Origin: Bacteroidota bacterium
GTDB taxonomy: Bacteria > Bacteroidota > Bacteroidia > Chitinophagales > LD1
NCBI GenBank assembly: GCA_947478005.1
Contig: CANJVG010000009.1
Coordinates: forward strand, 1 to 59,197
Length of the DNA: 59,197 nt
Direction of reading: 5' to 3'
Of the stretch, positions 17,513 to 44,240 are shown one piece after another. Each line of letters begins with the position of its first letter. Within the stretch, counting starts at the first letter, position 1. The translations under genes and the position numbers were made by a program. The notes below the pieces were generated by a model. The model had not been told where the DNA came from. It saw only the letters and a program-made list of their open reading frames with translations, and ran no database searches.

Positions 17513-17551
17513 GTGAAATGGTCTCGATTCTTCGCAACGAGACCATTTCAC
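17513..17551. repeat. 14-bp inverted repeat at the head of the minisatellite
   Basis: Arms 17513-17526 and 17538-17551 (GTGAAATGGTCTCG / CGAGACCATTTCAC) are perfect reverse complements around an 11-nt loop. The right arm is the start of minisatellite copy 1, so the left arm is an inverted piece of the repeat unit. It lies 13 nt after the stop of the 927-residue protein and could act as a weak terminator or mRNA 3' end, but no T-tract follows. Confidence 0.75.
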
Positions 17552-17718
17552 TTCGTAACATCATTACGATTCAATCGAACAAGACCATTTCACTTCGTAA
17601 CATCATTACGATTCCATCGAACAAGACCATTTCACTTCGTAACATCATTACGATTCAATCGAACGAGACCATTTCACTTCGTAACATCATGATGTTTCAA
17701 TCTAACGAGACCATTTCA
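17541..17718 (+). repeat. 42-bp tandem minisatellite, 4.2 copies
   Basis: Units start at 17541, 17583, 17625, 17667 and 17709 (partial). The first three are nearly identical and the fourth is diverged. Each begins GACCATTTCACTTCGTAACA and contains the small palindromes CGTAA-N5-TTACG and CGATT-N-AATCG. There are no unique spacers, so it is not a CRISPR array. Confidence 0.92.
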
Positions 17719-18505: not shown

Positions 18506-21500
18506 ATGAATAGTTACTACACACCCACCAAATCTCAAACATCCAATTCTTCAACTTCCTCTCCATCCATTATTGGCAAGGCCATGAAGTCTTCGTTGTT
18601 GATGGCGCTGATGCTAATGCTTTCGATGGGTAAAACCTGGGCGGTTGATTATCATAAATCAACAACAGCAACTTCTGCATTTAATGCGGGTACAACTTGG
18701 GGAACCACAGCATGTGCTGTGGGTGGTTTGGCCTGGCCAACTACTTCTGCCGACAATGCTTTTATCAATTGTGCAGCTAAGACGACTACCCCATCCGTCA
18801 CTATGGCCTGCGGCAACCTTACCATATCTGCCGGCACTTTGACTATTTCATCGGGCACCTTAACGGTGAATGGAGACCTTTTATTGAATGGAGGTACTCT
18901 AAATATTAATGGAACCGGTGTATTGACGGTGTTGGGTAATCTAACCTTCACGAGCGGCACATTTAGCCATACTGCCGGAACTGTCAATCTTTCGGGTGCG
19001 GCACAAAATGTGGGAGGTGCTATGACTCCATCTTTCTTTAATTTGAATGTGGCGGGTAGCGGTAATAAAACCCTTACGGGAAATGTGACGGTGGCAAATA
19101 TCTTAACCTTCACCAACAATAAACTGAATATAGGCTCCAATACACTATCGGTAAACGGAACGGTGGTAACGATGACAGCAGCCAAGTGTTTTGTAGGTAG
19201 TGCTACTTCCAATCTTACCTTTGGAGGAACAGCAGCCGTAGGTACTGTATTTTTTGACCAGACCAGTGCTGCTACCAGAACTATAGCAACTTACACTTCA
19301 TCCACAGGAACTTCTACACACACAGTAACGCTGGGTAATAAACTGGAAATAGGCACAGCTTGTAATCTTACCGCAGGTACCATAATCCTAAACGGGCAAG
19401 AACTCGTATTGAACGGCACTTTCACGGGTACAAGTACCGCCACGGGGTGTATAACAGCTACCAACACAGCCACTCTAACGATTGGGGGTACGGGTGCCTT
19501 AGGTACTTTATTCTTTACCAACTCTACTCCGGCCCTATCGGTCTTTAATATAAACCGAACAACGAGCGGCACACTAAGCATTGGTGGAACTTCGGGTACC
19601 ACGGCAGTGACTGTTACTACCCTGAATATGACCGCAGGGCAAACAACCCTAGTTGGTGACTTAGTGATGGCTGCCGCTGGCACCATTACCGGTACTCCTT
19701 CTACCAGCAATATGATTGTAACCAGTGCTACTTCGGGTTATTTTGTTCATAACTATGCTACGGGAGCCAGTTCAAAGCTTTATCCTGTAGGTGAGGTTGT
19801 GGGCGTAACTACCGGTGAGTATAACGGATTTACGGTTACTGTTGCTTCAAACACAGTAGCTCGCACGGTAGGTTGGAAAGTAGTAGATGCTGCACTTACC
19901 AGCCCTCCAACCAACTATTTGTCGCGCTACTTCGTGAGCAAGGCTTCGTCAACATCCACTACTTTCACCTGGTCAACCAGCTTACCTTTTAATGGATCAA
20001 CGGGAGACATTAACGGAGCCGAAACCAGCATGTTTGCAGGCTATAATACAGCCTCTACCTATGCCCTTACAAGTATAGGAACGGTCAATACCAGTACGCA
20101 TACGCTTGATATTACGGCAGGTACTTCCACTCAGCTCAATGCCACGGCCATGTATTTCACCGGTGCAGAAATTGCCTGCGCTAGCCCAAGCGGTCCACAA
20201 AGTTTTAACGTAACAACTATCAGCAATACTTCTACCCCTGTAACTATGACAGGTAATGTTGGTTTACAATTTAATACGAATGTCACTGGTGTTATAATAT
20301 TTGCAAACACAAGCAATGTAAATGCTGTACCGGTAACCAGTACAGACTATAACGTAGGCGATGTGTTGCCTTCCGGCTCTATCTGTATATTTAAAGGAGG
20401 CGCCCCTGCCTTGGGTGGCGCCAGCGGGAGTAACTATACTTCTACCTGGTCTTATGACGCCAGCGTAACGGGTGGAACTGATTTATCGCCTAATACTTTT
20501 TACTATTTCAATACCTATTCTTATGCATCGGATGCTACCTGCAATACCAAGTATTCGAGCACCTCAGGTTTTGCCAGCATGGCACCGAATATTAATTTGT
20601 CGGCACCGGGTACTGCAACGGCCTGCAACAACACCGCTAATTCATTTAACCTTGCTTATTCATCCACCAGCGGTTCACCCGACCAGTATAGTCTGATATG
20701 GAATTCGGCTGCAGCGGCTGCCGGTTTTGTAAACGAACCATCGAGCAATGTATCGAACACGCTTTGCGGTGCTAACTTTATCTCGCTTCCGGGCAGCCCT
20801 ATTGTTGTCAGCATTCCGGCAGGTATTGCCCCGGGTACTTACTCAGGATATATCAATCCTAAAAACTCGACCAACGGTTACGATAACTGTACTTACAGTG
20901 GTGCAGGTCTATCCAACTGTCCTTCCTTTACTGTAACTATAACGGCCGGTACTGCGGCTCCTACGGGTACAACACCTCAGGCGGCATGTCCGGGCTATAC
21001 AGTATCTAATTTAGTAGCTACGGGTACAGCTATCCAATGGTATGCAGCCGCTACGGGTGGCAGTCCATTAGCAGGTTCTACTGCTTTGGTATCAGGCAAT
21101 CACTATTATGCATCACAAACGGTTGGTGGTTGCGAAAGCAGCGCCAGACTGGATGTAACAGTTGTAGCTCCATTATCAGGTACCGTTACAGTAGGCTCAG
21201 GAGGTACTTATAATACTTTATCAGAGGCAGGTGCAGGAGGTTTATTTCAGGCTATCAATACCTTGGGGCTTGGCGGAAACTTAACCGTAAACATGCTTAG
21301 CAGCACTACCGAAACAGGTGCGGTGGCACTAAATGCCTGGACAAATTTTTGTGGTGGACCATGGACCGTAAATATTCGTCCGGATGCAACCGTATCCAGC
21401 ACTATTACTGCCTCATCTACCGTAACACCGATTACCTTAAACGGGGTTACCGGTCTTACCATGGATGGTGTGCCGGCAGGATCATCTGGCAGCAACGTAA

Positions 21501-24500
21501 TAGCTGACAGCAAGTGGATAATTAAGAGTACTTCTACTACTTTACCTACTATAATATTTACGAAGTCATCAGCCAATGTGGGTTGCACAGCCAATACCCT
21601 AAAGTATCTTCAAATTCAGGGTCAAAACATTACTAAAGGTCAGGTAGTGGGCGATTTGGCCGGGGTGGTTAATTTTTCAGGAACACCTACCGCTACCAAT
21701 GGCAATACAAGCAATATCATTACTTACTGTGCCATTGGCGACAACGGAGCGGGAACTCCGGCTAACTGTATCTACTCTTTCGGTAGCTCAACAGCCAGCA
21801 TGGGCAATGACAATAACCAGGTAACCAATTGCAACATTTACAACTTCTGGCAGCCTGCTACTATTACCAATGGTTTGAACGGTATCAACTTGCAAAACTA
21901 TAATGCGGGATGGACCATTTCGGATAATAGTTTTTATCAAACTGCTTCGAGAACAGCCACCGCTAATAATACTACCTCAGCAATTCTTGTAAACAATTCT
22001 GTGTCGGGTACAGGGTTTACCATCAGCAATAACTACATAGGTGGTGGAGCTGCAGGAGCTACCGGCAGTGCCTGGACCATAACCGGTAATTTCGTCAATG
22101 CGTTCACAGGTATTAATGTAACTCAATTAACCAGCGGAACCAGTACAGCATCGGGCAATGTTATAACCAATATATCCTGGTTATGTGCCAATACATCGGC
22201 TGTATTGCCGGGTATTTTCACCGGTATTTTTGCAAACAGCAATGGTACATTGAATATTACCGGTAATACCATCGGTGCTACTACCGGCAACGGAAGTATT
22301 ACCATTACAGATGTGACAACCACCGGAGCAAACAGCTACGGTATTGGTCATAATTCTACTTCGGGCTTTGTAAATATTCAAAACAACAATATCGGCTCGA
22401 TTACTTTGCTTGCAAATGCCACTACCATTTCACATAATTTTACCGCGATTCAATATGCGCAGGGTGGAAGTGCGAATGCCCGGACCATTTCGGGTAACCT
22501 TATTGGCAGCACCTCTACTGCAAATAGTATTTATGCCAACTGTGGTTCGTCATCAGTATCTACAGCTCAGAGTGTAATTGGTATTAGCAATGGAGGCGCA
22601 GGAGCCAATGCGGCCAGTATTACCAACAATACCATTGCCAACCTTACAAACAATTTAGGAGGAGCAACAACACTTGCAGGTCTTACATACGGTATTTATG
22701 TAACCTCGGGTGTTAATACCATTACCGGTAACACTGTCAGAAATTTAAGTTCTACATCTATATATACAAACACCAACGGTATTGGTACAGCCGGAATTTA
22801 CTGCGGGGCCACCGCTTCTTCCGGTCAGACTATTGCTCAAAATACGATTCATAGTTTATCTAATACTACTGCTACTGCCAATGCAGTTAACGTTACCGGT
22901 ATTTTTTACTCCGGTCCTGCGTCAGGAACTAATAGTATTAGCAGAAACTTCATTCATAGCTTATCTACCACTTCATCTGCTGCCAGCTTCCTGTCCGGTA
23001 TTGATGTTTCCGGTTCATCGGTTTGTACGGTTGATAACAATATGGTTCGCCAGGGTATCAACGCCAACGGCACTGACCTCACGGGCGGTCATGCTATCAG
23101 AGGTATTTATAAGAACAGTTCAGGAGCCTGCAACATCTATTTCAATAGCGTTTATATTGGTGGTGCATCTGTTACAGGTACTGCAACTACATCTGCCCTG
23201 TATCGGGCAACGAGTGGAACAGGGGATGTTTTCAAAGATAATATACTAGTAAATGCCCGCTCCAATGGGTCCGGAACAGGTAAACACCTTGGCATACTGT
23301 CAGGTGTTGTCACAAATTTAACCAGTGATTACAATTTAATTTTTGTTAGCGGAACCGGTGGTATTGTCGGACAAAATGCGTTAGTGGACTATGCTACTTT
23401 AACCGCCTGGTCGAGTGGCACATCCGTGGATGCCAACAGCGTTAGCGGTGATCCTATGTTCATTAGTCCGGCAGGAGATGCCAGCGCGGTAAATTTACAT
23501 ATCCAACCTTCACCCACCCCTACCCCAATTGAAGGTGCTGGGACTAATATTTCAGCCATAACGGTTGATTTTGATGGTCAAACAAGGGCTTCTTTTTCGC
23601 CTGAAGATATAGGAGCAGATGCTGATAATTTTACAGCAATTGACCTTACCCCTCCTTCAGTAACTTATACCGCAATACCCAGTGCCTGCAATTCGGCCTC
23701 CAGCTATTCTTTTTCATCAGTAACCATTACAGATGCAGGGTCCGGATCTTCGGTAAATACGACCTCAGGCACCATGCCCCGTGTATATTTCAAAAAATCG
23801 GCCGATGCTAATACAGTAGCAGGCTGGCAATATGTGGAAGCAACCGGAACCACCTCCCCTTTCACCTTTAATATTCCATTTTCTTCTGTTGGTGGTGTAG
23901 TTCCCGGTGATGTTATTCAATATTTTGTAGTGGCTCAAGACCAGGGTCCTTTTGTTCCATCTCCAAATGTCGCCATTAATTCAGGCGTTTTTGCGGCCAC
24001 ACCTGCCAGTGTAGCACTTACTTCTGCCGCGTTCCCTATATCCGGCACCATTAAATCGTTTACAATTATGCCTTGTCAGGGCACAGTAACCGTAGGAGTT
24101 GGAGGTAACTACATTGATTTTACATCTGCCAATGGTTTGTTTCAGGCTATCAATGCAACTACTGTTACAGGCAATTTAACGGTTAATGTAGTATCAAACA
24201 TTACCACCGAAGATGGAACCAATGCATTGAATCAATTTACATCGCCTTACACACTAACTATTCAGTCAAGCGCTGCTGCTAACCGCGATATCAGCGGTTC
24301 TTACAACGGCTCAGCCATTGCCAACAATGGACTTTTCCGTATGAATGGCGCTGACAATGTTACGTTTAACGGAGGCACAACAACAAACCGTTATCTTACT
24401 TTCAGAAATACCAATACGGGTGCCTTTGCTTCTACCTTTAATTTTATAAACGATGCGACTTCTAATACACTAAACAACTGTATTATAGAAGGAGGAAGTG

Positions 24501-27500
24501 CAACCACAACTATTGGTACTATCTATTTTGGTACCGGTACAGTAGGTAATACGGGAAACACCATAGACAAATGTGACATTCGCGATTTGACAACTACTAC
24601 GGCAACACCTGCCAATGCGATTTACTCTGCTGGGTCATCAACCACCGTTACCAATATTGCTTCAATCACTAATTGCAATATTTTTAATTACTACGCTGCA
24701 GCCGCAGCTTCAAATGGTATCATCCTTGCATCAAACAGTACGGGTTGGACTATAAGCTCAAACAAATTCTATCAGACAAGTACAAGAACAGCTACTGCGG
24801 GTGCAATTCATCGGGCGATTAACATCATTACAGCCTCGGGTGGCGGGTATACCATTAACAATAACACGATAGGTTTTGGCCTATCAGATGCTACTGGAAC
24901 TACCACCTATACCGGAGCATTTGCAAACCGCTTTATAGGAATTGAACTAACCGGTTCTGCGGTATCTAATATACAAGGGAACACTATTGCGGGTATTACC
25001 CTCAGCACTACCAGTGGAGCAACAACGGCACCCGGTATTTTTTCGGGTATCAGTGTATTGGCAGGTGCTGCTAATATTGGAAACACCGCTGCCAATAATA
25101 TTGGAACATCTGCAGGCAATGGTGGAATTTCCATTACCGCTACTACTTCTCTTGCATATATAGCAGGTATTACCTCAAACGCGGCATCTACTATTAATGT
25201 AGATATTGAGAACAATAATATAGGGTATATCACCACGGGTGGTACAGCGGCTATAGGCTATACCTTCTATGGTATTCACACAGCGGGTGCAGGTAACTAT
25301 ATTGTATCGGGTAATAATATCGGGAACTCATCAACAGATGCTATACGCATAGGTACCAGTGGAACTACTACCACGGGTGTATGTACAGCTGCGGGTATTT
25401 TTGCCAATAACAGCGGTTCGTTGACCGCATCCAGCAATGTATTGAACAACATAACTGAGTATGCTCCTAATGCGACCTCATATATATATGGTATTAACGC
25501 GCCATTGGCTACTTCCTTAACCTTGTCGCTTAATTCCATAACCAATCTAAAAACCACCTCTACCAATTCGGCAGCTTATGCCATGATTGGATTGTATAGT
25601 ATAGCTCCTGCAACTAATCAATTGATTGAAAGAAATACCATTGCGACTTTAACAGCCAATGGTAGCGCCAACCTGGCAAGTGTTTACTTTGGCAATACCG
25701 CATCAAGCGGAAATTTCAGAAGAAACAAAGTAGGCGATTTAATCAGCACCGCAACTTTGCCGGGGCTGCAGGCCGTAGTTATTGCAGCCTCGAGTGCCAG
25801 TGGCTGGACGATGTCCAACAACATGATTTCTGTTACCAATGCCGGCAATGCAGTGAGTGGCTCAGTTTACGGATTTTATGATAATGCAGCAACCGGTGCT
25901 GTATGTAACTATTACTATAACAGCGTTTATGTAGGCGGTGTTACCAACTGCCCTACCTGCGGAACAAATGCTTCGTTCTGTTATGTTCGGGTAAACTCTC
26001 CGACTGTTACTTTAAAGAATAATATTTTTGTAAATGACCGTGTAGGTTCGGGTGGTACCCCCGGCTATCACTATGCCATCGGCAACGCTTCAACTACACC
26101 AGCAACGGGCTGGTCGGTTTCTGCTTCTGACAACAATGTTTTAAATAGTACCACCGGTTCAATTGGAGGCTGGAATACCACGCTGAACATGAATTTTGCT
26201 ACCTGGAAATCGACCTCAGGTGGCGACACGAAGAGTCTTTCAGGCATACCTGTAACCTTTACAAGTACAGCAACTGCCAATTTGAAATTAAATATGGGAA
26301 CTACTCCGACCAGTATCGAATCAGGCGCGGTTGATGTAGGAATTAGTCTTGACCAGGAAGGTGATGCACGTCCGGGACCTACAGGTTCGGTAAACGGAGG
26401 CGGAAGCTTGCCGGATATCGGAGCCGATGAGTTTGATGGGGTAAAACTGGATGTATTTGCACCGGTGATTACTTACACACCGGTAAGTGCAGGTTGTGCT
26501 TACGACTATGTAGTTTCGGCTATCATTACCGATGCTACGGGTGTACCTACCAGCGGCAGCACACGACCAACTATTTATTACAAGAAATCGACTGATACCT
26601 GGGGTGTTAGTTCTTATTCTGGACAAGGTACATTGGCCTCAGGCACAGCTACCAACGGCACCTGGAATTTTACCATCGTAGCCTCTAACATGAGTTTGGC
26701 GGGAGGAGAAACAGTACAATACTTTATTGCAGCACAGGATGCTGTAACTCCTACTCCAAACATAGCAGCTAATCCATCGGCCGGTTTTAGTGCCACCGAT
26801 GTAAATACGATTATAACTTATCCTACTACACCTAACTCATACACCGTTAATCCAACATTGGCTGCCGGTACCTACACCGTTGGCTCAGGTGGTAACTACG
26901 CTACCTTAACCGCAGCTGTTGCAGCTTACAACGCAAGTTGTTTAGGAGGTCCGGTTGTATTTAGTTTAATAAATACGGGAGCTTCTGCTTATACCACAGG
27001 TACAGGCGAAACATTCCCAATCAAAATAAACTACAACGTAAGTGCCAGTTCAGTAAATACACTTACTATAAAACCTGCGGCTACCAAAACTCCAACCATA
27101 AGCGGAACGAGCGGTACAACTGCAGGTAATAACGGCCTTATTATTTTCAATGGCTGTACTTATGTAACATTGGATGGATCTAACGGTGCAAGTTCAAACG
27201 CTGTATGCCCGGCTTCGGCAGCTACCCGCGACCTTACCATTGTAAATACCAATCCAACTTTCACCTCTACGAATGCAATGGCTGTTATCTGGCTTCAAAA
27301 CAATGGAACTACAAGCAGTGCAACATATAATACGGTGCAGAACTGCGTAGTTAACTTTACGGGTGCTGGAGCAGGTAGCGGTATCGGAATCGGTGGAAAT
27401 ACAGGTACCTATTATTCGCTAATGTATGGCAACGGCAACAACTACAACTCTATCATTAATAACAGCGTGGCCAATACAAGTGGCGCTGCACAGGGTTATG

Positions 27501-30500
27501 GTATAATAGTGCAAGGAGGTAGTGCCACTACTAAAGATGTAGGCAACGTGATTAATCAAAACATAGTTGGTTATTCATCCGCTGCGGCACAAACCAGCTA
27601 TTTATCAAATGGTGGTATAGTGGCGGGCTGGCAAGATAATCTAACTGTTTCGGGAAATACCGTGAACGGTGTTTATAGCTCCAGCTATAACGCTTGCGGT
27701 ATAGGTCTCGGCATAGTTTATACAGGAGGATTAAGTGCGGGTTTAGTTGGTCTGGACAACGCTACTTATTCAGGAAACGAAGTTACCAATGCTACAATAA
27801 CCAATAATAAGATTGGTCTGGTTGGATGTCCTGGAAGTGGTTTTACGCGGTCAGCTGCAGGTATCATTATAGCTACAGTAAGTACCGGAACAGGCACAAC
27901 TACCATCGCTAATAATAGCATATCGGGTGTATATGGAGGCGGAGGAACAACAGCTATTACAGCCGGTTTATTTCTAGGTGGCGGAAATGGCACTACTAAG
28001 GTGTATAACAATACTGTAAACATGGCCAGCGTATTTTATACATCCCCTGCTACCAATACCCCTTTAGTTTCTTTGGCAGTAGGAGGGTCTAATCCGGTAT
28101 TAGATATCAGAAACAATATTTTCAGCACCAATGTTACCGGCACTAGCATTAACTATTGGTTGGGTTGTATGGCCTTTGCATATACGACTCTTACGAATCT
28201 AACAATGAATTATAATGATGTAATAGTTACGGGAAGCAATTCAGGCTTAGCACAAACAGGTGGTTTAGGAACTAGTGGTACGAACTATTCAACATTTGCA
28301 AACTGGCAGGCAACAGGTAAAGATGCAAATTCAAAGAACGTGGCGCCTACCTTTACTTCTTCTACCGATTTGCACTTAACCAGCGTATCGGGTAATCTTA
28401 CTAGTTTTGGAGGAACAGGAACTCCGATTGCTACTGTTACTACCGATTTTGATTGCCAAACCAGAGATGCGGTTATACCGGATTTAGGATTTGATGAGTT
28501 TGCTGCTAAAAACGATGCGGGTATTACAGCTGTTTCAACGAGTTGTTCAGGTCTTCAGACAGTAACCGCTACTATCAAGAACTTCAGTTCGAGCCTTACC
28601 TTAAATACTGTGGATGTTACCTGGTCGGTAGATGCTGTTGGTCAGGGCACAGTTAGTTTTAGCGGATTAAGCTTAGCACCGGGTGCATCTGTGGTTCAAA
28701 CTTTAGGAACCTATACCTTCTCTGCAGGTTCGCATACCGTGGTTGCAGCTACCAGCGTGCCAAATGCTGTAGCCGATGCTAACCCGGCTAATGATTCTTA
28801 TACTCAAACAGGTTATGCGGGTTTACCATCTACCGTTTATGTTGGTACAGGAGCAGGCACCCCTGCTTTCTCTGATTTCAACACCTTGTTTGGTGTAATC
28901 AACGGTAGCGGCTTAACAGCCGACCTTACGGTCTTGGTTCAAAGTTCAGTAACTGAACCTAGTACTCCTACCTTCTTAAAGGAGACAACGGCATGTAGCG
29001 GAGGTCCTTACCATATCTACATTCAACCGGCCACTGCCACTACTTATACTATCAGCGGTAGCACCGGAAGTTCAACATATCCGGGTATGATTGGATTTGA
29101 CGGAGCTTCATTAGTAAGCATCGATGGTCAGTTCAGCTCAGATGGAAATAAATGGTTGACCTTTAGAAATACGAACAATATTTATCCGGCTGTTACTTTC
29201 ATCAATGGTTCTAATAATATTTCGGTTGCTTACAGCACTATCGAAAGCAATAACAATACAACCTATGTATCGGGCTCGTTGACCAACAAACCGGGAACTG
29301 TGTTCTTTGGAAATGCATCGGCCAGTGTAGGAAACAACAACATCAGTATCAATCACAATGATATACGCGACAGAAGCGATGCCACCGGAGTTCCGGCCAA
29401 CGGCATTTTCTCGCTTAACTCGGTTGCTTCTATTTACAACAACACGAACACAATTACAGATAACAACTTCTATAACTTCTTCCAGTGTGGTGTTTATATT
29501 GCACCAACAGGTAACGGAGCTTCATGGAATATTTCGAACAACAAATTTTATAACCCATCTAACTTAGCTTCTTATGAAGCTTCGGTACCTCAGCAAATAG
29601 CTATCTATGTTTCAGCGGGTTCTACCTGTCACTCTAACACTATCAGTGGAAACACGATAGGCGGAAGTACCTCCAGCAATAGCGGTACCTGGCTTAACAG
29701 TTTGTCGGCTATTGACTTCGAAGCTATTCGTCTAGATATAGGAGGAACCAGCGGTCAGACAACTACCGTAAACAGCAACGTTATTAAAAACATCAGCTTA
29801 ACCGGAACAGGCCTTTCAGGTTTTATAGGTATAAGAGTAAAGAATGGTTTGGTAGATATCACCGGCAATACAATTGGCGATTTAAGTGCCACTTTTGCCA
29901 GTCCGAGCATCCAATGTAATGGTAACGGAACCAATGGAACCGGTGACAATAACAATACCTTCATTTATGGTATCTGGAATTACAGCACCAGTGCTTCGAC
30001 TATCAGCGGCAACACAGTGGCGGGTATCAGAGGGGGCAGTTCGGGCACTTCCGGTGGATGGTCTTATGTGACAGGTATCCGCAGAGGAGCCAAAGAGTTC
30101 GGCTCGAATGCATTGGTTCAATATGCAGGACAATCGACTATCAACAATAACACGGTAGCCAATCTTTTCTCTAACTCACTATTATCGGCTAACTTCATTA
30201 GCGGAGTGAACATTGACTTAGTTTGGCCGGGAGCTTTAACGGGAATTGCAGTGGCTTCTAACTATGCTTCGGATAACTCTGTTCGTGACAATAACGTGAA
30301 TAATTTAACGGCCTATGGCAATTGGAACAGATGGGTGAAAGTAATGGGTATTGCCGCGAACGGGGACCCTTCTTCACCGGTTGACAATGGTTCTATTTAC
30401 AATAACCAAATCAGCAAATTATCGAACTATAACGGAGGTCTTGCCTGGACACCGCAAATAGCAGGTATTGAATTGGGATATCTGAACTCAACCAACACCT

Positions 30501-33500
30501 TCACAGTTTACAATAACATGATTGGCCTTTACCCGAACAATTCGGATGCAGGTTCCAACAGTTCTTATAACGATATGGATTTGTATGGTATCCTGGATGA
30601 TGCCGATGCCAGCCATAGCAATACCAATAAGTATTACAACAACACGGTTTATCTGGCGGGTGCCAATCTATCGGGCGGTGTGGCTAAAGACTATGCCTAC
30701 TTCCGTTGTGGAGGAGGAGATGGTTCGGTAAATGGAGGTACCACTTATCTGAAAAACAATATCCTTATCAACAACAGAACTGGAGGTGGAACACACTATG
30801 CCATCGGAAACCAGGGCTCGAGTCCTTCCGTTGGATTCAGCGCTGCCAATATTGATTACAACTTCTTCTCGACTTTAAATACTGCTACAGTTGGTAACAA
30901 ACAGGTAGGTGCTATTGGTTCAGCTACCAGTACCGATTACTCCTTTACCGGATGGCAGAGTCAGTTTAGTACCGATGCAAACAGTTTGTATGCGCAAGCC
31001 ACTACAGGTACATCGAATTATAGCACTAACCCGGCAACTGCTACCGTAAACCCTACAGCGGGCAATTTATTTGTAGACCCTACAGATATTACCACTTCAG
31101 GAAGTTTCCTTCATGCATCTATTACCGATTTAGTAAGCTATCAGTTTATAAGCGATAATGGGGTGGATTTAAGCGCAGCAGGAGTAACTGCCGACATAGA
31201 TGGAGGCTCACGCTCTGCAACACCTGATAAAGGGGCCGATGAGTTTGTAGCAACTCCACCGGCTAACACCATAGCCTTGACGACAGTTTCATTTGGGCCT
31301 TTCTGCAATAGTTCATCAACAAATAACATCAGTTTAAATTACACCACTACCGGTACTGTAACCAGTCCTTTCATAGAACTTTCTAACAATAGTGGAAGTT
31401 TTGCGAGTGGCACCACCAATCTTGGTGGTACAGTAACCCCTGGTTCTCCAAACAACATCGCGGTTAATTTACCTTCAGCTCTGGCTGCCGGAACTTACCG
31501 TGTCAGAATTGTAAGCACGGATGCAATACCGGTTATCAGCAATGACAACGGAAGTTTGATAACTGTAACTGCATTACCTACAGCAAGCATTTCTTATGCA
31601 GGTACTCCTTTCTGTACATCTTTAGCAACGGGTCAATCTGTTACCTTATCGGGTTCAGGAGGAAGTTTCCCTGCTGTTAGTGGATTAACCATAAATAGCG
31701 GAACCGGAGCCATAACTCCTTCTACCAGTACTCCGGGTGGACCATACACAGTAAACTATGTAATCCCTGCATCAGGTGGTTGTGCGCAAGTAACTGCCAA
31801 CACAACAGTTACTATTACTGCCCTACCTACTGCTACGATTTCTTACTCTGGAACTCCTTTCTGCTCTACCAGCGGTTCCCAAAGTGTAACACTTTCCGGT
31901 TCGGGAGGTTCGTTTCCCGCAGTAAGTGGTTTGACACTAAACAGCAGCACAGGAGCTATTACTCCTTCTACCAGTACTCCTGGTGGGCCATACACAGTGA
32001 ATTACGTAATACCTACTTCAGGTGGTTGTGCACAGGTAACAGCGTCCACTTCTGTAACTATCAATCCTGCTCCTGCTGCGGTTACATTCACTTCAGCCAC
32101 ATCAACCAATAATAATCTTACACCTTGTCTTGTTGCAAATAACTATACCATCAATGCACAAGCCGGCTACACTTATAGCTGGTCTGTTCCATCGGGTTGG
32201 AGCGCAGTAAGCGGGGGTACAACTACGCAAATTACAGTTACACCAAGTTTGGCGGCCGGTAATGTAACAGCATCGGTATCAATTGCAGGCTGCACAGCTT
32301 CTTCGGCAAGTCTTTCGGTAACTCCTGTTACGGTACCTTCTGCTCCGGTAGCCAATCCGGTGTTGGGTGTGGGTACTTCGCCTCAAACAACGGGAATTGG
32401 AACCACCAACTTTACAGCCAACTGGGCTACCGTTAGTGGTGCTACCGGATATAACTTAGATGTTTCTACGAGCAGTACATTTAGCACTAGCGCTGCGGCT
32501 ATAACAGAAGGCTTTGAAGGTGTTACTTTCCCACCAACAGGCTGGGCAAATGTAAGTTGGGTGCGTAGTACTACAGCTGGTGATTTCGTTAACGGAGCAG
32601 CAGGGGCAACAGCTACTTCAAATACCGGTACATTAACCACACCGGTAGTAGCTAACCCTACCAACATGACCTTCTATTTAGGCAGGTCTTCCAATGCAAC
32701 GGCTAAAACATTAACGATTGAGGTTTCGACTACTAGTCAAAGTTCTGGTTTCTCAACGGTTGTTGCCACTTATGACCATAATAATGTTCCTTCCGCAAGC
32801 TATAATCAATACACTGTAGATTTATCTGCTTTTACATCTAACTCAACCGTTTATATTCGTTTCAATAAGAGCTCCTCTACCACTTCCCCTTGGAGATTAG
32901 ATGACGTGGTCATAAACAGTTCTACGCCATCCTATGTTTCAGGCTATCAGGACCTATCGGTTTCGGGAACCAGTCAATCGGTTACAGGACTTTCAACAGG
33001 AACTACCTACTATTATCGCTTGCGCGCTTCAAATGCCTGCGGAACAAGTGGCAATTCCAATGTAGTTTCTGCAACTACTCGTTCATTAACAGCCACTGCA
33101 TTATCGTCTTTTGGTACCCGTTGTTTTGGAAGCAGTACCGATCTTAGTTTCAATTTATCAGGAACAGGGCTTGACGGAACTGATGTTACTATTGGGCCTT
33201 TATCTGGATTCCAATTCTCCGCTAATGGTGGTGCATTTGGTTCTACTGCTACTTATAGCGGTTATGCAACTTCGTTTACCAACATTCCTATCACAGTTCG
33301 CTTTTTGCCAACTGGTTCTGGTTTAGTTTCTTTCAACGGAAACATTCCGGCATCGGGTGGGGGAGCTACTTCTATCAACATTGCAGCAACTGCTTCGGGC
33401 ACCGATGTTCCTGCTCAGCCTACAATTACAGCAGGAAGTTTAACTCCTTGCCCAAGTTCTGTAGGCACCTATAGTGTAGCCAATGTAGCAGGTGTTACTT

Positions 33501-36500
33501 ACGCATGGACTTTGCCTTCTGGATGGTCAGGTACTTCCACTACTAACAGCATTAGTGCTACTGCAAGTGCAACACCGGGAAGTTCGGGAACTATTTCAGT
33601 GGTACCAAGTATCGGCTCATGCGCGGGAACTGCACAAACATGGAGCGAAACAGTAACTACCTTGCCTTCTCAACCAAGTGTTATCAGTACACCGGGAAGT
33701 CCTTGTGCCGGCTCAACAGGAAATGTTTATTCAGTAACAAGTGTAGGTGGAGTAACCTATACTTGGGCAGTTTCTGGCACAGGCTGGAGTATTCCATCAG
33801 CCAGCACAACTAACTCGGTAACTATTACAGCAGGTTCGGCTAATGGTGGAATCACTGTTACGCCTTATGTAAACGGTTGCGCAGGACCTACAAGAACTCT
33901 TACAGGTATTTCGGTTGTTTCCTCTTACGTACCAACTGTCAGCATTTCTAATAGTTCAACTTCTGTATGTATCAACAGTAGCAATACGTTTACTGCTACT
34001 CGCACAGATGGCAATGGTGGAAGTGCAGCTTATAGCTGGAAAGTTAACGGAACACAGGTAAGTACCTCAAATCCATATACTGCGACTGCAGGTACTTTTG
34101 CAAACGGAGATGCTATCATATGTGATATGACCGTTACCGGTTCATGTGCTGTACCTTCTACTGCTACATCTAACACATATTTTGCCCAGAAGTTGGCTTA
34201 TTCTCCAACACAACTTTGGATAGAAAACTTTGGTACTTCTGATGTAATAGGCGTACAAAACTACACTAGTTCTGCTAATCCAACATTTACTTTCACAACT
34301 GGAGGGACACCAATTCCCGATGTAAAAACCAGCACTGTTTCACCGGGAGGTGGAGCAAATGTATTTATGGGTGCTACCGGATTTGCGGATAGATATTTTA
34401 CTATATCAGGTATTAATACCACAGGAGCTTTTCCAAATAAACTTTCTTTCTATTTCTACAATCCTACAACCACTGTAGCCTCTCCGGATTTCCGACTTCA
34501 ATACAGCACAGATGGAACTAACTTCTATGAAGTTAATTATGGAACAATAAGTACTGCAGGATGGTCACTTGTAAGTGTATACAATGTATTGCCTCAGTCA
34601 GCCACAGTTTCCTTACGCTTTATTTCCAACTTACAGGGATCTGTAAACATTCGTATTGACGATATAAAACTGGAGTCATATACTACAGGCGATGCAGCAG
34701 TATCTGCCAGTCCAACAGGTCCATTCTGTGGTTCTGGTTCTACTACCATTACTGCAACTCCTACAGCTGCTTCGGGTCTTACTTACGCATGGAACAACGG
34801 CAGTTTATTCTCTCCGTCAAATCCAACTATTAACAACCCGAATACTACTACCATTTCTTCTTCAGGCAGTGTTGTGACAACTAACTTTACGACAACTATC
34901 ACTGATATCTTCGGATGTACCAGTTCAGCTACTAAAACAGTGGTTGTAAATCCTGTACCGAATACGTACACGGTTACAGGAACAGGTTCGTACTGTAGTG
35001 GTGATGCCGGTTTAAATGTTGGCATCAACTCTTCTCAAACAGCCGTTAATTATCAGTTGTATTTCAACGGAACTCCGCAAGGAAGTCCTGTTGCGGGAAC
35101 TGGAAACCCTTCTCAATCTCTTTTTGGAGCGCAAACGGCTGCCGGAACTTATACAGTAGTTGCTACACACTCAACGGGGTCTTGCACCGCTACGATGACC
35201 GGAAGTGCTGTTATTACCGTGAATCCATTGCCTACTGCTTATACTTTATCGGCAAGCGCATCAAGCTATTGCCTTGGAGTAAGTGGTGTCACTTTGGATT
35301 TGAGCAACTCACAAACCAATACCAGTTATCAATTGCTTGTAGATGGCGTGAATACCGGAAGTCCGGTTACAGGAACAGGTTCAAGTATTTCATTTGGAAA
35401 TCAAATTGCTGCAGGTACTTATACCGTTACGGCAACTAATACTTCGCTTACACCTAACTGTTCTTCTACCATGACGGGTAGTCCGGCAGTAACCATTAAT
35501 CCGGTTGCTTCAGTTCAATTAGGAGGTTCCACCGCTATATTCACACAAGCCTTCACATCCGGTCTGCCGTCAGGTTGGAGTATCAATACGCCTTCCGGTT
35601 CTACTTATGACTGGGTTGTAACGAGTGCAACTCCATCTACCGGTTACACTGGTGCGAGTGGAGGAAATCGTTTCACCGTTGCAACATCTGCAGCCGGTGC
35701 AAATTCTACTACCACCAGTCAGTTAATTTCTCAAAACTATAGCATTAGCGGTTATTCAAACATCAGTGTAGTTTGGGCTGCTAGAAAAACAGCTTCTTAC
35801 CCTGGTAGCGGAACATTCTACTACTCCACAAACAATGGAAGCAGCTGGACTCAGGCAGCGTTTATTGATGTTGCAGGTAATAGTACTTGGTCATTGGTGA
35901 ACAATGGCATTGCTGTTAGTTTGCCTTTATCGGCAGGGGCTACCACATTAAAACTGCGTTGGGATGCACAGGCAGTAACTACCTTAAGTAACTATGGTTT
36001 AGACGATGTTAGTATTTATGGATTGGCGAATACAACTACCTGTACCAACTTATCCAGCGTAGCCATAAATTATGCAGCATCGGCAAATACTACAGGTTAT
36101 ACACTGACGGCCGGTACAACCGCTTTAGCTAGCTTTGTTACACAGTCAGGCACCTTATCAAGTGGAGGCGGAACTTTAAATTTAGTTATTCCTTCGGGAA
36201 GTGCTGCAGGAAGTTATGATTTCGACCTAAGCCTGACTAACGGAGCTTCGTGTAACAAAACCCACTCAATACCTGTGGTTATAGCGCCTACTCCATCAGT
36301 AACAGCGGTTATAGACGAATGTGCTTATACGAGTGCTGATAAAGATATTGTTTTGGTAACTGGTAGTGGTGGAACAACTCCAATTACCTATACCTCGTCA
36401 AATGTTGCTGACTTACCTTTGACGAGTATTAGTAACTACTTGATTCCTTTTGAAGCACCTACCGATGGTCTTAGCAGAACATTTACTGCGACAGATGCGT

Positions 36501-37780
36501 CAGGTTGCATCGCGAGTTCAGGTGCTATTACCACATACAACAACCACCCTACTGATATCCCTTACGCTTCGGCAACTGGAACTAAAACGGTTGATTGTTA
36601 TTCAAAAAACCTAAATCGTTGGTTAACGTTTAGAGATAACACGAACAAGGCTATCCTTTCGATTAAGGATAACAACCAGGATTTAGGTTTAGTAACGGTA
36701 AGTGTCTACCGTGAAGGAGCTGAACCTGCTATTTTGAACAGCAGTAATCACTCTACGAATACAGGAGTTGGTAATTGTTACTTATATCCGGAGTTGGCGA
36801 TGAAGAGACACTTTGCTATTACTACTGAAAAGACATTCTCTCAGTCAGTGGATGTGCGTCTATATTTTTCGGATGCTGAATTGCAAAGTTTAATTACGAC
36901 TTCAACTGTTCCGCCTTCCAACCCAAATGACGGTTGTGCCAAGGGTGATGACGTACACAATATCAATCAGTTGTATGTAACTAAATACAGCGGACCAAAC
37001 GTGGATGGTTCATACACCAATAATAGCGCAGCTAATCAAGGTGGAATTTACCGCATGTTTGGAGCCAACGTAACATCACCTAACACCGCTTTTGATGCAG
37101 TTTCAAGTGGAGGGTTTACTAGTTTATTTAGTGGCGCACCAACTCATCATTATCTTCAAATGCATGTTACCGAGTTTTCTGAATTCTGGTTGCACGGTAG
37201 TGACGAGATATATCCGTTGCCGGTAGATATGATTTATCTGGAAGCCAATGCAATCAACAATGCCTATATTCAGTTAACCTGGGCAACAGCTTTGGAAGTA
37301 AACAATGATGGATTTATCATTGAACGCAGCGTTGATGGACAAAACTGGAGTCAAATTGCTTTTGTTGATGGACACGATAACTCAACTATTCAAAATGATT
37401 ATAGTTATGATGACCTGAATGTGACAACAGGAATTCGTTATTACTATCGTTTGAAACAGGTGGATAATGACGGACAGTTCAAATACACCGATATAGTTAG
37501 TGCCATGCTTTCAGGTGACATTACCTTCAGTGTTAAAGATTTTGTGCCAAATCCGGCAGGCGATAAAACAACATTGTTGATCACTGCCACTTCGGCACAG
37601 GAGTTAACGGTGGAGATATTTGATATTATCGGGCAAAAAGTAAGCAGTAATATACATACACTGAACAGGGGTCTAAACCGCCTTGATTTTGATGTAAGCT
37701 ATCTGGCTTCGGGTACTTATTCCGCAGTGGTATATTCAGGTAATGCTACTTTTACTAAGAAGTTAGTAATAACGAAATAG
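18506..37780 (+). CDS. Giant T9SS type A surface protein with four beta-helix modules
   Basis: A single intact frame of 6424 residues. The export signal (MKSSLLMALMLMLSMGKTWA) lies at residues 27-46 behind a Ser/Thr-rich lead; ATG at residue 27 is an alternative start. Residues of about 60-540 are short beta-strand repeats rich in 'L-x-I-x-x-G-T-L'. Four modules follow at about 892-1708, 1859-2644, 2788-3333 and 3442-4248. Each opens with a 'TVxVGxGGxY' type header, continues as Asn/Gly-rich parallel beta-helix repeats, and closes with 'D-x-G-A-D-E-F' or a variant. Linkers include a CARDB-like segment near 3334-3441. From 4249 on come Ig-like repeats, an Fn3 domain interrupted by a jelly-roll domain (4630-4858), two more jelly-roll domains (about 5236-5390 and 5680-5841), and a type A sorting domain ending FTKKLVITK. 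No enzyme active site is evident, and adhesion or polysaccharide binding is inferred. Confidence 0.88.
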   Translation: MNSYYTPTKSQTSNSSTSSPSIIGKAMKSSLLMALMLMLSMGKTWAVDYHKSTTATSAFNAGTTWGTTACAVGGLAWPTTSADNAFINCAAKTTTPSVTMACGNLTISAGTLTISSGTLTVNGDLLLNGGTLNINGTGVLTVLGNLTFTSGTFSHTAGTVNLSGAAQNVGGAMTPSFFNLNVAGSGNKTLTGNVTVANILTFTNNKLNIGSNTLSVNGTVVTMTAAKCFVGSATSNLTFGGTAAVGTVFFDQTSAATRTIATYTSSTGTSTHTVTLGNKLEIGTACNLTAGTIILNGQELVLNGTFTGTSTATGCITATNTATLTIGGTGALGTLFFTNSTPALSVFNINRTTSGTLSIGGTSGTTAVTVTTLNMTAGQTTLVGDLVMAAAGTITGTPSTSNMIVTSATSGYFVHNYATGASSKLYPVGEVVGVTTGEYNGFTVTVASNTVARTVGWKVVDAALTSPPTNYLSRYFVSKASSTSTTFTWSTSLPFNGSTGDINGAETSMFAGYNTASTYALTSIGTVNTSTHTLDITAGTSTQLNATAMYFTGAEIACASPSGPQSFNVTTISNTSTPVTMTGNVGLQFNTNVTGVIIFANTSNVNAVPVTSTDYNVGDVLPSGSICIFKGGAPALGGASGSNYTSTWSYDASVTGGTDLSPNTFYYFNTYSYASDATCNTKYSSTSGFASMAPNINLSAPGTATACNNTANSFNLAYSSTSGSPDQYSLIWNSAAAAAGFVNEPSSNVSNTLCGANFISLPGSPIVVSIPAGIAPGTYSGYINPKNSTNGYDNCTYSGAGLSNCPSFTVTITAGTAAPTGTTPQAACPGYTVSNLVATGTAIQWYAAATGGSPLAGSTALVSGNHYYASQTVGGCESSARLDVTVVAPLSGTVTVGSGGTYNTLSEAGAGGLFQAINTLGLGGNLTVNMLSSTTETGAVALNAWTNFCGGPWTVNIRPDATVSSTITASSTVTPITLNGVTGLTMDGVPAGSSGSNVIADSKWIIKSTSTTLPTIIFTKSSANVGCTANTLKYLQIQGQNITKGQVVGDLAGVVNFSGTPTATNGNTSNIITYCAIGDNGAGTPANCIYSFGSSTASMGNDNNQVTNCNIYNFWQPATITNGLNGINLQNYNAGWTISDNSFYQTASRTATANNTTSAILVNNSVSGTGFTISNNYIGGGAAGATGSAWTITGNFVNAFTGINVTQLTSGTSTASGNVITNISWLCANTSAVLPGIFTGIFANSNGTLNITGNTIGATTGNGSITITDVTTTGANSYGIGHNSTSGFVNIQNNNIGSITLLANATTISHNFTAIQYAQGGSANARTISGNLIGSTSTANSIYANCGSSSVSTAQSVIGISNGGAGANAASITNNTIANLTNNLGGATTLAGLTYGIYVTSGVNTITGNTVRNLSSTSIYTNTNGIGTAGIYCGATASSGQTIAQNTIHSLSNTTATANAVNVTGIFYSGPASGTNSISRNFIHSLSTTSSAASFLSGIDVSGSSVCTVDNNMVRQGINANGTDLTGGHAIRGIYKNSSGACNIYFNSVYIGGASVTGTATTSALYRATSGTGDVFKDNILVNARSNGSGTGKHLGILSGVVTNLTSDYNLIFVSGTGGIVGQNALVDYATLTAWSSGTSVDANSVSGDPMFISPAGDASAVNLHIQPSPTPTPIEGAGTNISAITVDFDGQTRASFSPEDIGADADNFTAIDLTPPSVTYTAIPSACNSASSYSFSSVTITDAGSGSSVNTTSGTMPRVYFKKSADANTVAGWQYVEATGTTSPFTFNIPFSSVGGVVPGDVIQYFVVAQDQGPFVPSPNVAINSGVFAATPASVALTSAAFPISGTIKSFTIMPCQGTVTVGVGGNYIDFTSANGLFQAINATTVTGNLTVNVVSNITTEDGTNALNQFTSPYTLTIQSSAAANRDISGSYNGSAIANNGLFRMNGADNVTFNGGTTTNRYLTFRNTNTGAFASTFNFINDATSNTLNNCIIEGGSATTTIGTIYFGTGTVGNTGNTIDKCDIRDLTTTTATPANAIYSAGSSTTVTNIASITNCNIFNYYAAAAASNGIILASNSTGWTISSNKFYQTSTRTATAGAIHRAINIITASGGGYTINNNTIGFGLSDATGTTTYTGAFANRFIGIELTGSAVSNIQGNTIAGITLSTTSGATTAPGIFSGISVLAGAANIGNTAANNIGTSAGNGGISITATTSLAYIAGITSNAASTINVDIENNNIGYITTGGTAAIGYTFYGIHTAGAGNYIVSGNNIGNSSTDAIRIGTSGTTTTGVCTAAGIFANNSGSLTASSNVLNNITEYAPNATSYIYGINAPLATSLTLSLNSITNLKTTSTNSAAYAMIGLYSIAPATNQLIERNTIATLTANGSANLASVYFGNTASSGNFRRNKVGDLISTATLPGLQAVVIAASSASGWTMSNNMISVTNAGNAVSGSVYGFYDNAATGAVCNYYYNSVYVGGVTNCPTCGTNASFCYVRVNSPTVTLKNNIFVNDRVGSGGTPGYHYAIGNASTTPATGWSVSASDNNVLNSTTGSIGGWNTTLNMNFATWKSTSGGDTKSLSGIPVTFTSTATANLKLNMGTTPTSIESGAVDVGISLDQEGDARPGPTGSVNGGGSLPDIGADEFDGVKLDVFAPVITYTPVSAGCAYDYVVSAIITDATGVPTSGSTRPTIYYKKSTDTWGVSSYSGQGTLASGTATNGTWNFTIVASNMSLAGGETVQYFIAAQDAVTPTPNIAANPSAGFSATDVNTIITYPTTPNSYTVNPTLAAGTYTVGSGGNYATLTAAVAAYNASCLGGPVVFSLINTGASAYTTGTGETFPIKINYNVSASSVNTLTIKPAATKTPTISGTSGTTAGNNGLIIFNGCTYVTLDGSNGASSNAVCPASAATRDLTIVNTNPTFTSTNAMAVIWLQNNGTTSSATYNTVQNCVVNFTGAGAGSGIGIGGNTGTYYSLMYGNGNNYNSIINNSVANTSGAAQGYGIIVQGGSATTKDVGNVINQNIVGYSSAAAQTSYLSNGGIVAGWQDNLTVSGNTVNGVYSSSYNACGIGLGIVYTGGLSAGLVGLDNATYSGNEVTNATITNNKIGLVGCPGSGFTRSAAGIIIATVSTGTGTTTIANNSISGVYGGGGTTAITAGLFLGGGNGTTKVYNNTVNMASVFYTSPATNTPLVSLAVGGSNPVLDIRNNIFSTNVTGTSINYWLGCMAFAYTTLTNLTMNYNDVIVTGSNSGLAQTGGLGTSGTNYSTFANWQATGKDANSKNVAPTFTSSTDLHLTSVSGNLTSFGGTGTPIATVTTDFDCQTRDAVIPDLGFDEFAAKNDAGITAVSTSCSGLQTVTATIKNFSSSLTLNTVDVTWSVDAVGQGTVSFSGLSLAPGASVVQTLGTYTFSAGSHTVVAATSVPNAVADANPANDSYTQTGYAGLPSTVYVGTGAGTPAFSDFNTLFGVINGSGLTADLTVLVQSSVTEPSTPTFLKETTACSGGPYHIYIQPATATTYTISGSTGSSTYPGMIGFDGASLVSIDGQFSSDGNKWLTFRNTNNIYPAVTFINGSNNISVAYSTIESNNNTTYVSGSLTNKPGTVFFGNASASVGNNNISINHNDIRDRSDATGVPANGIFSLNSVASIYNNTNTITDNNFYNFFQCGVYIAPTGNGASWNISNNKFYNPSNLASYEASVPQQIAIYVSAGSTCHSNTISGNTIGGSTSSNSGTWLNSLSAIDFEAIRLDIGGTSGQTTTVNSNVIKNISLTGTGLSGFIGIRVKNGLVDITGNTIGDLSATFASPSIQCNGNGTNGTGDNNNTFIYGIWNYSTSASTISGNTVAGIRGGSSGTSGGWSYVTGIRRGAKEFGSNALVQYAGQSTINNNTVANLFSNSLLSANFISGVNIDLVWPGALTGIAVASNYASDNSVRDNNVNNLTAYGNWNRWVKVMGIAANGDPSSPVDNGSIYNNQISKLSNYNGGLAWTPQIAGIELGYLNSTNTFTVYNNMIGLYPNNSDAGSNSSYNDMDLYGILDDADASHSNTNKYYNNTVYLAGANLSGGVAKDYAYFRCGGGDGSVNGGTTYLKNNILINNRTGGGTHYAIGNQGSSPSVGFSAANIDYNFFSTLNTATVGNKQVGAIGSATSTDYSFTGWQSQFSTDANSLYAQATTGTSNYSTNPATATVNPTAGNLFVDPTDITTSGSFLHASITDLVSYQFISDNGVDLSAAGVTADIDGGSRSATPDKGADEFVATPPANTIALTTVSFGPFCNSSSTNNISLNYTTTGTVTSPFIELSNNSGSFASGTTNLGGTVTPGSPNNIAVNLPSALAAGTYRVRIVSTDAIPVISNDNGSLITVTALPTASISYAGTPFCTSLATGQSVTLSGSGGSFPAVSGLTINSGTGAITPSTSTPGGPYTVNYVIPASGGCAQVTANTTVTITALPTATISYSGTPFCSTSGSQSVTLSGSGGSFPAVSGLTLNSSTGAITPSTSTPGGPYTVNYVIPTSGGCAQVTASTSVTINPAPAAVTFTSATSTNNNLTPCLVANNYTINAQAGYTYSWSVPSGWSAVSGGTTTQITVTPSLAAGNVTASVSIAGCTASSASLSVTPVTVPSAPVANPVLGVGTSPQTTGIGTTNFTANWATVSGATGYNLDVSTSSTFSTSAAAITEGFEGVTFPPTGWANVSWVRSTTAGDFVNGAAGATATSNTGTLTTPVVANPTNMTFYLGRSSNATAKTLTIEVSTTSQSSGFSTVVATYDHNNVPSASYNQYTVDLSAFTSNSTVYIRFNKSSSTTSPWRLDDVVINSSTPSYVSGYQDLSVSGTSQSVTGLSTGTTYYYRLRASNACGTSGNSNVVSATTRSLTATALSSFGTRCFGSSTDLSFNLSGTGLDGTDVTIGPLSGFQFSANGGAFGSTATYSGYATSFTNIPITVRFLPTGSGLVSFNGNIPASGGGATSINIAATASGTDVPAQPTITAGSLTPCPSSVGTYSVANVAGVTYAWTLPSGWSGTSTTNSISATASATPGSSGTISVVPSIGSCAGTAQTWSETVTTLPSQPSVISTPGSPCAGSTGNVYSVTSVGGVTYTWAVSGTGWSIPSASTTNSVTITAGSANGGITVTPYVNGCAGPTRTLTGISVVSSYVPTVSISNSSTSVCINSSNTFTATRTDGNGGSAAYSWKVNGTQVSTSNPYTATAGTFANGDAIICDMTVTGSCAVPSTATSNTYFAQKLAYSPTQLWIENFGTSDVIGVQNYTSSANPTFTFTTGGTPIPDVKTSTVSPGGGANVFMGATGFADRYFTISGINTTGAFPNKLSFYFYNPTTTVASPDFRLQYSTDGTNFYEVNYGTISTAGWSLVSVYNVLPQSATVSLRFISNLQGSVNIRIDDIKLESYTTGDAAVSASPTGPFCGSGSTTITATPTAASGLTYAWNNGSLFSPSNPTINNPNTTTISSSGSVVTTNFTTTITDIFGCTSSATKTVVVNPVPNTYTVTGTGSYCSGDAGLNVGINSSQTAVNYQLYFNGTPQGSPVAGTGNPSQSLFGAQTAAGTYTVVATHSTGSCTATMTGSAVITVNPLPTAYTLSASASSYCLGVSGVTLDLSNSQTNTSYQLLVDGVNTGSPVTGTGSSISFGNQIAAGTYTVTATNTSLTPNCSSTMTGSPAVTINPVASVQLGGSTAIFTQAFTSGLPSGWSINTPSGSTYDWVVTSATPSTGYTGASGGNRFTVATSAAGANSTTTSQLISQNYSISGYSNISVVWAARKTASYPGSGTFYYSTNNGSSWTQAAFIDVAGNSTWSLVNNGIAVSLPLSAGATTLKLRWDAQAVTTLSNYGLDDVSIYGLANTTTCTNLSSVAINYAASANTTGYTLTAGTTALASFVTQSGTLSSGGGTLNLVIPSGSAAGSYDFDLSLTNGASCNKTHSIPVVIAPTPSVTAVIDECAYTSADKDIVLVTGSGGTTPITYTSSNVADLPLTSISNYLIPFEAPTDGLSRTFTATDASGCIASSGAITTYNNHPTDIPYASATGTKTVDCYSKNLNRWLTFRDNTNKAILSIKDNNQDLGLVTVSVYREGAEPAILNSSNHSTNTGVGNCYLYPELAMKRHFAITTEKTFSQSVDVRLYFSDAELQSLITTSTVPPSNPNDGCAKGDDVHNINQLYVTKYSGPNVDGSYTNNSAANQGGIYRMFGANVTSPNTAFDAVSSGGFTSLFSGAPTHHYLQMHVTEFSEFWLHGSDEIYPLPVDMIYLEANAINNAYIQLTWATALEVNNDGFIIERSVDGQNWSQIAFVDGHDNSTIQNDYSYDDLNVTTGIRYYYRLKQVDNDGQFKYTDIVSAMLSGDITFSVKDFVPNPAGDKTTLLITATSAQELTVEIFDIIGQKVSSNIHTLNRGLNRLDFDVSYLASGTYSAVVYSGNATFTKKLVITK
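31580..32077 (+). repeat. Tandem 249-bp coding duplication in the giant gene
   Basis: Two adjacent 83-codon units starting at 31580 and 31829 encode near-identical Ig-like modules (landmarks 'SISYxGTPFC', 'SGSGGSFPAVSGLT', 'ITPSTSTPGGPYTVNYVIP', 'SGGCAQVTA'). The high similarity at DNA level points to a recent duplication. Confidence 0.9.
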
Positions 37781-44234: not shown

Positions 44235-44240
44235 CCAGAT

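Follow-up and report, generated by a model that had tools for sequence, protein, structure and literature searches.

In the present study, we analysed a window of 59,197 nucleotides from a Bacteroidota bacterium (assembly GCA_947478005.1, contig CANJVG010000009.1), that is, the whole stretch of DNA under study. Its main feature is a giant gene whose frame of 6424 residues (18506-37780, plus strand) has no internal stop in translation. A sequence-only reading of this DNA had described an intact frame of more than 19 kb with four modules, each bracketed by a header and a footer, and this description was confirmed, since all 6424 codons are open and the strings were found at the places given. The true start of the frame is likely Met27, at 18584. 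The parts of the gene are collected in Table 1. When residues 1-4250 were searched in large pieces, no Pfam or NCBIfam match was obtained at E 0.1; the HMMER filters may mask family matches in such biased sequence, and the Ig_7 domain (PF19081, 35.4 bits against a cut-off of 27.3) surfaced only in a smaller piece. Pfam matches in the N-terminal repetitive region are weak for residues 47-300 (PF21930, E 0.012, under the cut-off) and absent at E 1 for residues 300-560, as they also are for linker 1. After cassette 4, PKD_6 was matched above its cut-off in three stretches (best at 33665-33889), and the Ig, Fn3 and MAM-like matches in this C-terminal half are weak or were judged by eye. At about 32300-33205, a MAM-like segment is seemingly inserted within an Fn3-like domain (weak Pfam matches, nesting by eye). 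The longest internal direct DNA repeat of the gene (200 nt, 74% identical, 31634-32079) also lies in the C-terminal half. The seven relative ORFs that match parts of residues 6045-6345 include a giant of 6031 residues (locus L035).

Table 1. Features of the giant gene in the window, with the basis of each assignment
Feature	Coordinates	Strand	Basis or remarks
Giant ORF, 6424 aa	18506..37780	+	ORF list and translation
Signal-peptide-like segment, residues 27-46	18584..18643	+	judged by eye
N-terminal Thr/Gly-rich repetitive region, residues 47-560, perhaps beta-helical	18644..20185	+	by eye
Ig_7 (CHU_C-associated Ig-like) domain, residues 817-887, before cassette 1	20954..21166	+	PF19081
Cassette 1 (long type), residues 885-1712	21158..23641	+	header 21179-21259, footer 23606-23632
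Linker 1, Ig-like by eye	23630..24085	+	homologous to linker 2
Cassette 2 (long type), residues 1852-2650	24059..26455	+	header 24080-24154, footer 26414-26434
Linker 2	26438..26875	+	homologous to linker 1; beta-rich C-terminal part of the cassette 2 model
Cassette 3 (short type), residues 2780-3338	26843..28519	+	header 26867-26932, footer 28481-28501
Linker 3, CARDB-like	28505..28834	+	PF07705 at E 0.01, under cut-off; low model confidence
Cassette 4 (long type), residues 3435-4254	28808..31267	+	header 28829-28903, footer 31226-31246
C-terminal half: PKD-like repeats, Ig/Fn3-like and MAM-like segments	31268..36637	+	
C-terminal region, residues 6045-6345	36638..37540	+	parts match 7 relative ORFs (blastp, 1e-10)
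T9SS type A sorting domain (Por_Secre_tail)	37547..37771	+	PF18962, TIGR04183

Several other features were observed around the giant gene. The gap preceding it holds a 42-bp tandem repeat (17536-17726, 4.5 copies, 93%), and a 670-residue protein with collagen-like Gly-Pro-Thr-Gly repeats (by eye) is encoded at 40964-42976 on the plus strand, with DNA tandem repeats at 41527-41768. At 51082-51362, a unit of 42/85 bp recurs in tandem (6.6 and 3.3 copies) over the 5' end of, and the sequence upstream of, a minus-strand frame at 50166-51095. Two PhoD-like proteins with T9SS tails lie at 1479-4151 (by Pfam) and 47351-49453 (by eye and a tail hit), and two adjacent ketoacyl-ACP synthase III-like proteins (by eye) at 43179-45488 on the minus strand.

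The header starts at residue 892 in cassette 1 (GTVTVGSGGTYNTL, with LFQAIN at 913), at residue 1859 in cassette 2 (GTVTVGVGGNYIDF, LFQAIN at 1878) and at residue 3442 in cassette 4 (STVYVGTGAGT, LFGVIN at 3461). It had been given as V-x-V-G followed by LFQAIN or a relative, which holds for these three modules but not for module 3, where the header at residue 2788 (GTYTVGSGGNYATL) has Y-x-V-G instead and is followed by AVAAYN at 2804. The footer, described as DIGADEF or a variant, was found in all four modules (DIGADADNF at 1701, DIGADEF at 2637, DLGFDEF at 3326 and DKGADEF at 4241), the exact string in module 2 only. That these strings are chance motifs was rejected by block shuffles of the protein: with patterns composed after the strings were known, D[ILK]G[AF]D was observed 4 times against 0.008 per shuffled protein and VxVGxG 3 times against 0.36 (500 shuffles).

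Pairwise blastp alignment of the cassettes was also performed. Full-length alignments were obtained among cassettes 1, 2 and 4, with 35% identity between C1 and C2 (1e-55), 29% between C2 and C4 (1e-33) and 28% between C1 and C4 (7e-19). Their scores of 192, 125 and 78 bits stand against shuffled maxima of 30, 25 and 30 (200 block shuffles for each pair, of which 145-152 gave any match). Cassette 3 reached 48.9 bits with C1 and 34.7 bits with C2, above the shuffled maxima of 24.3 and 25.8, and its 30.8 bits with C4 are not above the shuffled maximum of 36.6. The alignment of all four, as proposed earlier, joined three of them fully, and the match of cassette 3 to C4 did not exceed the shuffled level. 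From these comparisons we regard modules 1, 2 and 4 as full-length homologues and module 3 as a shorter, diverged type. Linkers 1 and 2 (residues 1709-1860 and 2645-2790) are homologous as well (35%, 5e-15), so that the repeat unit for C1 and C2 is the cassette plus its linker; linker 3 gave no blastp match to either of them. The spacing of Asn is clear across the cassette alignment and weak inside single cassettes (best autocorrelation 0.07-0.11).

For the prediction of the fold, AlphaFold2 was supplied with 64 aligned long cassettes as rows for cassette 2 with linker 2, and with 30 short cassettes for cassette 3 with linker 3. The former model has a pLDDT of 89.2 and a pTM of 0.86, and the latter a pLDDT of 77.0 and a pTM of 0.81 with low confidence in the linker. 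Modules 2 and 3 are each predicted to be one right-handed parallel beta-helix, and cassettes 1 and 4 would be beta-helices by homology only. In both models, the header forms a strand and then a helix. The first helix of the cassette 2 model (residues 27-32) is exactly LFQAIN, and the header helix of the cassette 3 model (residues 22-31) contains AVAAYN. The footer of cassette 2 lies at model residues 786-792, and the pLDDT of its blocks is 86 and 80, against 67 in the preceding block 771-780. According to these models, the header would be the N-cap, with LFQAIN as the cap helix, the footer the C-terminal end, and the whole cassette one folding unit. Contact of the footer with the helix is suggested by the structural alignments.

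The Foldseek matches were modest (best E 7.4e-6 for cassette 3 and 2e-3 for cassette 2). With the Foldseek candidates, VIA-align placed Pel9A (Z 24.6 over 301-793), tailspikes and PfbA (20.2) near cassette 2, and AlgE modules (25.7), Pel9A (Z 23.3 over 6-554) and LnbX (Z 23.3 over 7-554) near cassette 3, these ranges giving the first and last aligned residue only. The cassette 3 alignments with Pel9A and LnbX begin in the header and finish in the footer. Because the ends superpose on Pel9A and lacto-N-biosidases, the bracket is largely beta-helix capping; the header and footer resemble generic ends, as are usual in a beta-helix of the pectate lyase kind, more than a special bracket. The earlier suggestion that each cassette is one folding unit was thus upheld by the prediction for modules 2 and 3, whose header and footer appear to lie at the two ends of one fold and not in different folds, but these ends appear generic. 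In sequence searches of the PDB, cassette 1 alone gave no match, the header and footer profiles stayed at chance level and no enzyme was matched beyond chance; with the cassette profiles, only 9rx2, a 'parallel beta-helix repeat protein', was found (3.3e-6, no single stretch passing).

Header-like and interior patterns had served to find the relative loci, and the pair counts in them are therefore ascertained. In 90 ORFs of loci L035-L114, there were 173 header and 167 footer hits in a scan without HMMER filters or bias correction and with looser cut-offs, which adds headers and also spurious hits, chiefly of the linker profile. Neighbouring hits formed 154 header-footer, 89 footer-header, 7 header-header and no footer-footer pairs, and 243 alternating pairs compare with 161 expected by label shuffling (maximum 185 in 2000). 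A stricter scan with filters and bias correction gave 81 headers and 161 footers, in 69 header-footer, 45 footer-header, 42 footer-footer and 1 header-header pairs; 114 pairs alternated where shuffling would give 72 (maximum 87 in 2000), and many headers were missed.

A less biased test was carried out in 60 evenly drawn genomes of the order, with profiles built from the ascertained loci and this window. Among these genomes are four that contributed rows to the profiles or encode near-identical proteins, namely the window's own genome, that of L035 and two with proteins like those of L036 and L065. The header was hit 63 times in 28 genomes and the footer 142 times in 42. On the same strand, 54 of the 63 headers are followed by a footer 411-1056 residues downstream, and none of the 63 has a nearby footer on the opposite strand. 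After removal of the four genomes nearest to the profile rows, the proportion was 37 of 46. Four of the nine headers without a footer lie on the minus strand less than about 2,000 bases from the contig start, where the footer could be cut off. In the other direction, only 61 footers have a header 200-1167 residues upstream and 81 of the 142 are without a detected header, by which the rule that a footer implies a header was rejected. The header therefore predicts a downstream footer and the footer is used more widely, so the expectation that the two always occur as brackets was mostly borne out from the side of the header but not from that of the footer.

Twenty footer regions chosen by hand, the majority lacking a detected header, were re-examined for sub-threshold headers, and several had a header below the first threshold. 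None was found in L191 (at a contig end), L195 and L200-L204, and only weak ones in L190 and L196. Locus L200 (genome G036, contig 5) carries an open frame of 7930 residues with several footer hits and no detected header in the 6030 residues examined. Identity of the footer with choice-of-anchor Q (NF041518) was also considered and rejected. The cut-off of 25 bits is missed by the footers of cassettes 1 and 2 (15 and 15.5 bits), and those of cassettes 3 and 4 are absent among the NF041518 matches listed in the genome search; this family matches 19 of 41 footers at E 1 or better (best 0.00032).

The lengths from header to footer in L035-L114 (n=154) have two peaks, at about 450-550 and 750-800 residues, and a less common class around 1,100. 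The counts are 27 in 450-549, 109 in 650-899 (60 of these in 750-799) and 10 in 1,050-1,149, the last from five loci, three of them Flavobacterium. In the 60-genome set, 29 of 54 lengths fall in 411-548 and 21 in 746-856, and the longest class is not distinct. A profile of the four cassettes matched only the giant ORF in its own genome at E 0.001, and separate header and footer profiles revealed a second bracketed protein of that genome (L185, contig 27, 25500-31500), whose header and footer are about 970 residues apart. Of 30 genomes of the taxonomic family, 13 gave a match at 1e-10, the own genome included. A genome of the same genus encodes a protein of 6031 residues with five cassettes, the same frame length as in L035 (Chitinophagales bacterium MAG-369); around it, only the giant was matched among the 20 window proteins (1e-8, in three stretches). 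From 147 related stretches 80 were kept, mostly labelled Bacteroidota or Ignavibacteria; the Akkermansia, Thiomargarita, Dokdonella and Chloracidobacterium contigs are metagenome bins and may be mis-binned. The number of cassettes in the relatives ranges from one to seven, an Ig-like linker often being present, and the largest number was seen in L049 (seven in 6155 residues, without a linker hit). The giant belongs to a widespread and apparently unnamed family of multi-rod proteins, and in the open-licence literature we did not find this cassette described.

A quick tree was built from 35 of the 64 long cassettes. In it, cassette 1 groups with the first cassettes of L036 and L065 (support 98) and not with its own neighbours, and cassette 4 with the last cassettes of L035, L036, L065 and L060 (91, inner order not settled). 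The four L049 cassettes included group with L057 (100). This would fit arrays that are old and were passed on whole, with more recent amplification in some lineages. Recent DNA duplication of the cassettes was rejected, the DNA matches between them being only 31-37 nt. With 28-35% identity among C1, C2 and C4 and no long DNA repeat between cassettes, duplication inside the giant gene is judged to be old. Spread by duplication, as had been supposed, accordingly finds support in the cassette numbers of relatives and the amplification in L049, but not as a young event within this gene.

The C-terminal tail was matched by TIGR04183 (type A sorting, 41 bits against a cut-off of 23) and by PF18962 (43.1 bits against 27), and the protein gave no match to TIGR04131 (type B) at E 0.1. 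The SprA translocon gene is present in the own genome (SprA_N at 8.6e-160), together with at least 150 Por_Secre_tail matches (150 of 243 candidates scored), and the next longest frame among the matches listed is 1982 residues. In the relatives, TIGR04183 was matched at 0.001 in 42 of 58 C-termini, taken from 65 frames with a stop inside the locus after 7 early-ending or broken-looking ones (by eye) were omitted. The giant protein is probably a type A T9SS cargo exported to the cell surface. It had been placed among the larger T9SS cargoes, and it is indeed large but holds no record, as SprB has 6497 residues (excerpt of PMC9870892). In the same order, footer hits also occur in open frames as long as 6500 and 7930 residues.

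We believe, with a probability of about 0.6, that the giant is a type A T9SS cargo whose non-enzymatic beta-helix rods serve as a surface adhesin, a stalk or a matrix-binding array. The protein, whose N-terminus is signal-peptide-like by eye, would probably cross the outer membrane by the T9SS and become attached to the surface through its C-terminal tail. There it may display several rigid rods in a row, each a right-handed parallel beta-helix and some connected by Ig-like linkers, on a C-terminal stalk of PKD/Ig type. In each cassette, the header would act as N-cap, an Asn ladder would run through the coils and the footer would close the C-terminal end. Such caps could prevent merging or aggregation of neighbouring helices and so allow tandem multiplication, and the rods would most likely act as an adhesin, a stalk or a matrix-binding surface. 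From the spacing of conserved Asn columns and the usual rise of a beta-helix coil, we estimate that a long cassette may have about twenty coils of some 35 residues and a length of some 10 nm.

The non-enzymatic reading is favoured because Asn and Gly make up most of the conserved columns and charged residues few of them, and because no enzyme family was matched. Across the 64 long cassettes, 57 columns reach at least 85% conservation; Asn accounts for 19 of them, Gly for 18 and Ile for 7, and 5 are charged. The charged ones (E51, R661, D723, D765 and R771) lie in the header, near the C-terminal end and in the footer, with none between model residues 52 and 660. The cassette-bearing pieces gave no Pfam or NCBIfam match, enzyme families included, at E 0.1. 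The nearest solved folds count against this reading, being largely polysaccharide lyases, epimerases, glycosidases and phage tailspikes. The cassettes may accordingly be catalytic, so that polysaccharide lyases or glycoside hydrolases like PL6, PL9, GH28 and GH136 would stand in an array tethered to the surface, and carbohydrate enzymes are often exported by T9SS. We consider such an array unlikely in view of the failed enzyme matches and the charged columns, of which none is mid-helix, although conservation across the family could mask catalysis in individual cassettes.

It is quite unlikely, in our estimation, that the protein is a purely passive spacer or matrix filament, in which length set by cassette number outweighs any binding surface. 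The length classes, the variable number of cassettes and the structural look of the conserved positions agree with such a filament, but the residues that separate the ladder positions vary strongly (rows share 27-38% identity with the first row), which would also fit changing ligand surfaces. Least likely of these readings is an SprB-like gliding adhesin carried along the cell surface by the gliding motor. The size, the T9SS tail and the repetitive beta structure are similar, but SprB is described in the excerpted text of PMC7463736 as having a type B tail with SprF anchoring, whereas the giant is type A and gave no type B match at E 0.1.

The adhesin, stalk or matrix-binding reading can be extended, rather doubtfully, to the family as a whole. 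The capped cassette would then be an unnamed rod module of about 500, about 770 or more rarely 1,100 residues. Tandem copies of it, frequently with an Ig-like linker, would form surface filaments of adjustable length and ligand surface in Bacteroidota, Ignavibacteria and perhaps further phyla, the caps blocking helix fusion between neighbours during T9SS export. In the present study, an unannotated stretch becomes a defined module with a linker, whose fold can be tested and whose ends can be recognised, and which occurs in many environmental Bacteroidota. Annotators could use the header and footer profiles to divide giant T9SS proteins into their domains, and a single cassette is small enough for expression and structure solution. 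Furthermore, the giant offers a route to how T9SS handles very long, strongly beta-structured cargo.

Pel9A (1ru4), LnbX (5gqc), the AlgE A-modules and the PL6 lyases have the same fold as is predicted for the cassettes; they are enzymes, whereas the giant has several tandem helices without a conserved charged set in the helix. PfbA is attached to the cell wall in a Gram-positive bacterium and is not known to be a tandem array, and Giant1-4 belong to lactic acid bacteria, which are not known to have a T9SS. PfbA of Streptococcus pneumoniae (4mr0, 3zpp), a beta-helix surface adhesin according to the excerpt of PMC3718772, gave Z scores of 20.2 with cassette 2 and 21.8 with cassette 3. Giant1-4 of Apilactobacillus kunkeei are, in the excerpt of PMC12863079, giant surface proteins with a beta-solenoid and proposed adhesins, and each carries one N-terminal solenoid on a long helical-repeat rod, unlike the several helices of the giant. 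SprB of Flavobacterium johnsoniae, compared here by length and tail type from the excerpted sources (PMC9870892, PMC7463736), is likewise a giant T9SS surface cargo of similar length; it is a type B, SprF-anchored gliding adhesin, and the giant is type A and slightly shorter. The giant is a well-marked modular variant of known things, namely beta-helix domains and giant T9SS cargo.
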